Assembly: GCA_030682385.1 (NCBI GenBank)
Contig: JAUXOG010000012.1
Span: 1-33,828 of the forward strand
DNA from: Bacteroidota bacterium
GTDB taxonomy: Bacteria; Bacteroidota; Ignavibacteria; UBA10030; BY39
DNA length: 33,828 nt
Direction of reading: 5' to 3'
The position numbers were made by a program, and so were the translations under genes. Positions within the stretch are counted from its first letter, which is position 1, and every line of letters starts with the position of its first letter. Positions 16,862-17,816 of this stretch are shown here, piece by piece. The notes under the pieces are model-generated. The model did no database searches, was not told the DNA's origin, and was given only the letters and a program-made list of their open reading frames with translations.

Positions 16862-17317
16862 TTATTTTTCAGGAAATAAACTTTCGGTTAACGACAATGC
16901 GATACCCGACATCATTACTTCCGGAGCAAGCCGTGTAAAATCGCCGGAGAGGATTTTACGATCGACATTAGCATAGAGCGAACAGCCGGCTTCACGTTCG
17001 ACAATTAAGCCGCTGAGTTTACCGTTCATATCTCCGATAAATGTAACTTCATTCAATTCTTCACTCACAGCAAATCCTGTGCAAAAATGTAATTGCAAAA
17101 AAGAATTGAGTGCGTAAACCGATACCATTGTACCAATTTTATCTCCGATTAATATATCAGGATAAATTTCTAAAGCAAGTTTTCGCTTTTCTTTTTCGTT
17201 ACGGAGTTCGTACCGATAAAAGTTTCCAATTTTTTTTAGTTTCGTTTTTAGAACCTTACTAATAACCGATAAACTATTTTTATTGAAAGTATAAAACTTC
17301 TGTGTTTTACTTTTCAT
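16862..17317 (-). CDS. conserved-looking protein of unknown function
   Basis: I do not recognise this 151-residue protein. It has no signal peptide and no transmembrane segment. The first 60 residues are basic, then come mixed strands and helices with motifs GDKIGTMVSVYALNSFLQLH, NEVTFIGDMNGKLSGLIVER and DFTRLAPEVMMSGIALSLTE. The G-D-M-N-G-K-L-S-G and S-G-D-F-T-R-L-x-P-E patterns look like conserved loops, and the protein may bind a nucleic acid or ligand, but that is a guess. The start is ATG 17317 with an AGGA ribosome site; a TTG at 17338 is possible but less likely. The gene is preceded by the csp terminator, so its promoter is unclear, and it heads the ybeY-Smg-topA run. Confidence 0.7.
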   Translation of the reverse strand: MKSKTQKFYTFNKNSLSVISKVLKTKLKKIGNFYRYELRNEKEKRKLALEIYPDILIGDKIGTMVSVYALNSFLQLHFCTGFAVSEELNEVTFIGDMNGKLSGLIVEREAGCSLYANVDRKILSGDFTRLAPEVMMSGIALSLTESLFPEK

Positions 17318-17339
17318 TTTATGTCCTAAGTTTAACAAT

Positions 17340-17378
17340 AAAAACCCCGCAAGATTCCTCGATAGAGTATCTTCGGGG
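17340..17378 (-). terminator. Rho-independent terminator of the cold-shock gene
   Basis: The hairpin pairs CCCCG-AAGAT with ATCTT-CGGGG (17345-17355 and 17369-17378), with one bulged base and a 13-base loop. On the minus strand it is followed by TTTTT. It lies 26 bases beyond the csp stop and only 23 bases before the next gene's start, so partial read-through may feed that gene. Confidence 0.8.
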
Positions 17379-17403
17379 TGTTTGAATATTTTTAAAAATA
17401 CAA

Positions 17404-17610
17404 TTATCTGACAACAAATACTTTTTTGGCTTGCAGTCCTTTATTTCCTTCTACAAGCTCGAATTCAATCAGATCACCTTGATCTAATTTTTTAAAATTC
17501 GCTTTGGTTTGGATTTCCGTGTAGTGGATAAAAATATCTTTTCCGTTTTCCCACTGAACAAATCCGTAACCTTTTTTTGCATCAAACCACTTTACCTTGC
17601 CTTTTGGCAT
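17404..17610 (-). CDS. cold-shock protein (CspA family)
   Basis: The 68-residue protein is a single cold-shock OB-fold. It begins KGKVKWFDAKKGYGFVQ, which contains the RNP1 motif KGYGFVQ (13-19); RNP2 follows as DIFIHY (25-30). Such proteins bind single-stranded RNA and melt secondary structure at low temperature. A strong AGGAGG ribosome site precedes the ATG. The gene has its own promoter (17788-17816), a leader of about 170 bases with two interleaved inverted repeats, and its own terminator, which resembles the layout of E. coli cspA. Whether expression is cold-induced cannot be read from the sequence. Confidence 0.96.
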   Translation of the reverse strand: MPKGKVKWFDAKKGYGFVQWENGKDIFIHYTEIQTKANFKKLDQGDLIEFELVEGNKGLQAKKVFVVR

Positions 17611-17640
17611 AACTACCTCCTCTAATAAGTTTTACCATTA

Positions 17641-17707
17641 ATAGTCGCAAAACATCTCAGGTTAATAATTTATTAATTGAGCGACTATCGCAGTAAAGTT
17701 ACCTGAG
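17641..17707 (-). promoter_or_regulatory. structured leader of the cold-shock mRNA
   Basis: Two inverted repeats interleave. The 8-base arms ATAGTCGC (17641-17648) and GCGACTAT (17681-17688) alternate with the 7-base arms CTCAGGT (17656-17662) and ACCTGAG (17701-17707). The order is b-a-b'-a', so the helices either form a pseudoknot or exclude each other. The element ends about 22 bases from the AGGAGG ribosome site. By analogy with E. coli cspA it may be a temperature-responsive RNA, but that is inference. Confidence 0.5.
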
Positions 17708-17787
17708 TGTTTTTATAAAAAATTTAAATATTTCAATTTTATATCATACCACCTAAAAATCCATTAATGGAGAAAATATTTGTAGCT

Positions 17788-17816
17788 AATATACAACACG
17801 AATTCAATTTTGTCAA
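17788..17816 (-). promoter_or_regulatory. sigma-70-like promoter of the cold-shock gene
   Basis: On the minus strand TTGACA (17811-17816) and TATATT (17788-17793) are separated by 17 bases. Predicted start is near 17781, giving a leader of about 170 bases. The -35 lies 12 bases after the stop of the MBL hydrolase gene, with no terminator between. A 10-base palindrome, CCATTAATGG, is at 17761-17770 just downstream of the start. Confidence 0.8.

Follow-up and report, generated by a model that had tools for sequence, protein, structure and literature searches.

On the minus strand of the 33,828 nt stretch of DNA analysed here (the window) lies a cold-shock protein gene, csp, with a leader in which two inverted repeats are interleaved. 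In the direction of transcription, the parts of the locus are:

17788..17816, minus strand: promoter TTGACA-N17-TATATT, 11 of 12 consensus positions (TTGACA box at 17816-17811, minus strand, a 17-base spacer, then TATATT at 17793-17788)
17708..17780, minus strand: 5' part of the leader, unconserved
17701..17707, minus strand: 5' arm (b) of helix S1, CTCAGGT
17693..17697, minus strand: predicted outer part of helix S2, 5' arm TTTAC
17681..17688, minus strand: inner part of helix S2, 5' arm (a), ATAGTCGC
17663..17680, minus strand: AU-rich loop L2, TCAATTAATAAATTATTA, 94 % A+T
17656..17662, minus strand: 3' arm (b') of helix S1, ACCTGAG
17641..17648, minus strand: inner part of helix S2, 3' arm (a'), GCGACTAT
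17631..17635, minus strand: predicted outer part of helix S2, 3' arm GTAAA
17616..17621, minus strand: Shine-Dalgarno sequence AGGAGG, outside both helices
17404..17610, minus strand: csp, encoding a 68 aa cold-shock protein (Pfam CSD, 78.7 bits), with a same-position ortholog in the class
17339..17386, minus strand: intrinsic terminator 3' of csp (-18.2 kcal/mol, z -4.7) with a U run directly after it

The promoter, the leader of about 170 nt (counted from a predicted transcription start near 17780) and the two perfect inverted repeats of 8 bp (inner S2) and 7 bp (S1) in the order b-a-b'-a' are all as described in an earlier note on this DNA. The repeats also end near AGGAGG, as that note had said, though the spacing from the end of arm a' is 19 bases and not about 22. 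Beyond an internal loop, helix a extends outward by the pairing of TTTAC with GTAAA and ends 9 bases before the Shine-Dalgarno sequence. The strong intrinsic terminator behind csp makes a single-gene transcript probable, and no terminator hairpin of the kind used by terminator-type riboswitches was found in the leader between the repeats and csp.

In the 170 nt window leader, the best interleaved pair of stems has a stacking energy of -29.4 kcal/mol, and none of 1000 dinucleotide shuffles (mean -17.5 ± 2.7 kcal/mol, sd) matched it. When orthologous leaders were each set against 200 shuffles of their own, 29 of 33 beat all of them and the remaining four were equalled by just one to four. The nested fold of the 217 nt window leader is unremarkable because nested folding is blind to a pseudoknot. 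AT-rich DNA often contains short palindromes and this nested fold has a z of just -0.69, as would suit functionless repeats arising by chance in an AT-rich leader, but that explanation is contradicted by the shuffle test, by conservation across families and by the compensatory changes described below, and can for practical purposes be set aside.

Whether the two helices exclude each other or form a pseudoknot had been left as alternatives. As the arms share no bases, mutual exclusivity is not implied, and it is disfavoured by the estimated pseudoknot energy. In 21 of 22 leaders this energy, a hand estimate using a single fixed penalty, lies below that of the best nested fold. Both helices would be expected to form simultaneously, an arrangement that the loop lengths permit and the energy estimate favours.

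Orthologs of csp were sought by a profile search over 391 genomes of the class Ignavibacteria, which gave csp orthologs in families f10, f16, f55 and f57; the window genome belongs to family f1, and four other f1 genomes were compared. The order b-a-b'-a' is kept in the leaders of the same-position csp of 11 genera in five families (f1, f10, f16, f55 and f57). Within f1 the order of the arms is constant and their sequences shift, the arms being ACTTAGAC/GTCTAAGT and GTGACCGA/TCGGTTAC in one relative (L010) and CTCAGGT/ACCTGAG and CGCTGTAACC/GGTTACAGCG in another (L008). The 14 leaders taken to represent the 11 genera have 13 distinct S1 arms and 14 distinct S2 arms. Cross-family MAFFT alignments misplace S1, and covariation was therefore counted only within f10 and f55 together and within f57, the comparison across families being made by swapping arms. 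In the 14 representative leaders, pairing is 0.44 (S1) and 0.41 (S2) for arms swapped between species and 1.00 for each species' own arms, a value that is partly by construction as the arms were picked for pairing; the weight of the case rests on the shuffle test, the fixed geometry and the covariation in f10 and f55.

In a sequence-only alignment of the f10 and f55 leaders, 91 % of cells are paired and both helices carry compensatory changes, with double changes in 9 of 20 pairs (3.5 when shuffled). The covariation value is 0.381, compared with 0.262 for shuffled alignments (none of 500 reached the real value) and 0.07-0.18 for slid controls. Pairing falls from 91 % to 22-52 % once the partner is shifted by one to three columns. 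An outer helix occupies the same place in f10 and f55 as the outer part of S2 in the window, with 95.6 % of cells paired. Covariation within f57 alone is not significant because the f57 sequences are too alike. Since the order is kept despite changed arms and the compensatory change is significant, the interleaved helices of the csp leader are almost certainly a real pseudoknot, and the order 5'-b-a-b'-a'-3' with compensatory changes in both helices is that of the H type. The pseudoknotted alternative in the earlier note is the one that stands, the architecture recurring in five families with arms that pair within species and covary among relatives, where that note had proposed to look for covariation.

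Helix lengths are for the most part 7-13 bp in S1 and 7-14 bp in S2, where they reach 19 bp at most. Loop L2 commonly measures 9-21 nt in the orthologs and has an A+T content above the leader average in most, and the whole element spans roughly 75-110 nt. In some members (L169 and L170, and L140 by model alignment), about 38-60 extra nt lie between b' and a' and the architecture is intact; in L169 and L170, both from f10, this loop (L3) holds approximately 38-42 extra nt with hairpin-forming repeats of its own. In f10, f55 and f57, S2 has an internal loop that contains GA, together with a short outer helix. In the leaders of these families (L169-L180 and L187-L194) GA is retained on the 3' side of this loop and purines on the 5' side, a pattern that suggests tandem G-A type pairing and perhaps a surface for binding. 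A kink-turn at this GA-rich loop was considered and dropped, the bulge being absent.

The inner S2 arm ends 7-25 nt upstream of the Shine-Dalgarno sequence, which is strong in nearly all of the orthologs that carry the pseudoknot. A promoter of the form TTGACA-N17-TATATT or TTGACA-N17-TAAATT, with the same spacing, precedes csp in all scanned leaders of four families (f1, f10, f55 and f57), consistent with a transcript that starts upstream of the helices, as the earlier note had supposed. The distance from the -10 box to the pseudoknot is not conserved over these families (12-193 nt), being about 80-112 nt in f1, 138-193 nt in f10 and only 12-14 nt in f57. Given this variable distance from the start and the steady closeness to the Shine-Dalgarno sequence, it is the ribosome site, and not the 5' end, that fixes the position of the element. 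These distances bear on the proposal that the pseudoknot is a stabiliser of the 5' end, shielding an abundant mRNA from RNases with no action on initiation. In f57, the pseudoknot starting 12-14 nt past the -10 box would indeed be almost at the 5' end; however, in f1 and f10 it is approximately 70-190 nt from the predicted 5' end and always close to the Shine-Dalgarno sequence, and we consider this proposal improbable. The AU-rich loop near a strong Shine-Dalgarno sequence could also be a ribosome standby site that docks protein S1 or the 30S subunit and gives constitutively high translation with no sensing. The fold lies close upstream of the expected 30S footprint and leaves the ribosome site clear, as would suit such a site, but the upkeep of two covarying helices would be a high price for presenting a short AU-rich stretch, making a standby site quite unlikely.

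The gene order csp, unknown gene, ybeY is constant throughout the class, and csp is therefore counted as the same-position ortholog. The intervening gene (window positions 16862-17338, minus strand) encodes a 158 aa protein found between csp and ybeY across the class by tblastn, down to 35 % identity; it has no Pfam or NCBIfam match and represents an uncharacterised family in a fixed gene order. Five csp genes are present in the window genome, and only the one at 17404-17610 has the pseudoknot, a scan of the paralogs for the same structure having revealed nothing convincing. The csp genes scanned from other classes and phyla likewise gave no convincing pseudoknot. A covariance model (R1) built on the S2 helix of f10, f55 and f57 was run over the 391 genomes and gave 19 full-strength matches (66-102 bits) and one weaker match (G134, 35 bits), one per genome and every one directly upstream of the same-position csp; R1 fails to reach f1 and most of f16, and this restriction to csp applies to copies of the types that the model reaches. 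Four further matches, which score 23-29 bits, appear to be due to chance.

The sister family f2 has the same-position csp with no pseudoknot, even when loops of up to 90 nt were allowed, and none was seen in three other members of the class (L139, L202 and L205). As f2 keeps csp without it, the pseudoknot is not essential to the control of csp. The simplest reading is that the element is ancestral and that some lines have lost it; the Csp protein tree has too few columns to date gain or loss. In one pseudoknot-free f2 leader (L133), the segments GTTGTTC, GAACAAC and TGTTCAG lie between about 125 nt before the ATG and the start, and might pair into hairpins that compete with one another close to the ribosome site. 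In the leaders of csp paralogs of the MEKGTVKWFNG type (L001 1255-1494, L018, L019, L034, L043, L044, L051, L137 and L138), CAATYAACAGTACACCG recurs almost unchanged some 236-256 nt upstream of the start codon. Closer to the gene these leaders share another element containing GTAC, and GAAAGGA...GTTCC is conserved immediately ahead of the ATG. Judged by its sequence, this is a second, different conserved csp-leader element.

The pseudoknot fold leaves the Shine-Dalgarno sequence uncovered. A two-state thermosensor resembling that of cspA, in which a warm fold hides the ribosome site and refolding to the pseudoknot in the cold exposes it, is suggested by the gene itself, as the csp leaders of Escherichia coli, Listeria and Staphylococcus aureus have been described as thermoswitches, and by the window arm ACTTTAC, which can pair with GTAAAGT within the coding region. 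However, alternative pairing of this type is not conserved, the complementarity of the leader to the start region ranks middling or poor against shuffles in 17 of 19 cases (several at 92-99 of 100), and nested ensembles at 37 °C hide the ribosome site inconsistently; we therefore regard such a switch as unlikely. In most leaders the pseudoknot region is no more complementary to the start region than shuffled sequence is, and it often ranks near the bottom; switching by an anti-Shine-Dalgarno sequence was rejected, this complementarity not being conserved. No conserved alternative fold covering the ribosome site, as an RNA thermosensor would have, was found in these leaders. Hence, of the RNA thermosensor proposed earlier, a structured csp leader outside the Proteobacteria is retained, and a conserved fold that would hide the ribosome site was not seen.

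The lack of a conserved competing fold and the favoured energy of the pseudoknot suggest that regulation, if any, proceeds via melting or binding of the pseudoknot itself. Csp proteins bind single-stranded RNA, and the only candidate Csp site in the leader is the AU-rich loop. In E. coli, Csp proteins have been reported to remodel their own leaders, and thermoswitch csp leaders are described from E. coli, Listeria and S. aureus (PMC8155936, PMC4166951). In the model that we prefer, the leader would fold to an H-type pseudoknot in which S1 is b with b', S2 is a with a' plus the outer extension, and an AU-rich single-stranded loop joins them; sitting just upstream of an exposed Shine-Dalgarno sequence, the pseudoknot would act in cis on its own csp mRNA. 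The folded pseudoknot would be the translation-competent or decay-resistant state, because it sequesters the leader strands away from the ribosome site. The signal would probably be cold, the Csp protein or both. Accumulating Csp would bind the AU-rich loop and melt the helices, such that csp is made until Csp is sufficient. That the element is a cis-acting regulator of csp is very likely. We hold with moderate confidence, by analogy with the known csp leaders, that temperature or Csp is the signal, and the case for the folded state being the ON state is evenly poised. Overall, the best explanation is a pseudoknot that acts in cis and, when folded, keeps the csp mRNA stable or available for translation; it has about an even chance of being correct. 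The estimated stacking stability ranges from about -26 to -51 kcal/mol across leaders, a spread that is unlike a finely tuned thermometer and counts against this explanation.

The best-studied csp leaders are from the Proteobacteria and Firmicutes, and cold-shock genes are a classic case of control by mRNA leader structure. That a deep branch of the Bacteroidota/Ignavibacteriota has a compact, conserved pseudoknot at a single same-position csp gene suggests more than one separate origin of csp control by leader RNA. The RNA is small and its helices can be separately broken and repaired, making the idea testable.

At threshold, no family in Rfam 15 matches the window. The earlier note had entertained homology to the E. 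coli cspA leader, which the comparison with Rfam does not bear out, there being no cspA (RF01766) match in the window and scores of 23.7-27.1 bits at four other loci, far below the gathering cut-off of 78; the other loci have just weak cspA and 5S matches. A literature search of incomplete coverage, supplements excluded, found no description of a csp pseudoknot in this lineage, and the element is very probably an undescribed control element. More tentatively, and on balance somewhat doubtfully, it may represent an undescribed class-wide family of cis-regulatory RNAs, specific to csp and sensing cold or Csp with the ribosome site always open, that evolved separately from cspA.

The E. coli cspA leader reportedly includes a pseudoknot in its cold form. 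It is likewise a long structured cold-shock 5' UTR whose structure governs translation and stability (PMC4166951), whereas the element described here has no match to RF01766 at threshold, is about 75-110 nt long, excludes the coding region, has no conserved cover over the Shine-Dalgarno sequence and has turned up in just one class of the Bacteroidota/Ignavibacteriota lineage. The thermoswitch leaders of Listeria monocytogenes cspA and S. aureus cspB and cspC also provide post-transcriptional control of csp by leader RNA (PMC8155936), but belong to an unrelated lineage, and the likeness is to their description in a review, not to their structures. The Chlorobi-RRM motif precedes a gene that encodes an RNA-binding protein. 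It is a candidate structured RNA from the neighbouring Chlorobi group (RF01697; PMC2864571), for which autoregulation is plausible, though the gene family is different and RF01697 is not matched in the window. The alpha-operon mRNA pseudoknot bound by ribosomal protein S4 (PMC7858274) similarly lies near a ribosome site and raises the possibility of feedback by the encoded RNA-binding protein, but here the gene encodes a cold-shock-domain protein and the pseudoknot is upstream of the ribosome site. The structured csp leader is of a known kind, here in the form of a compact pseudoknot and apparently of separate origin.
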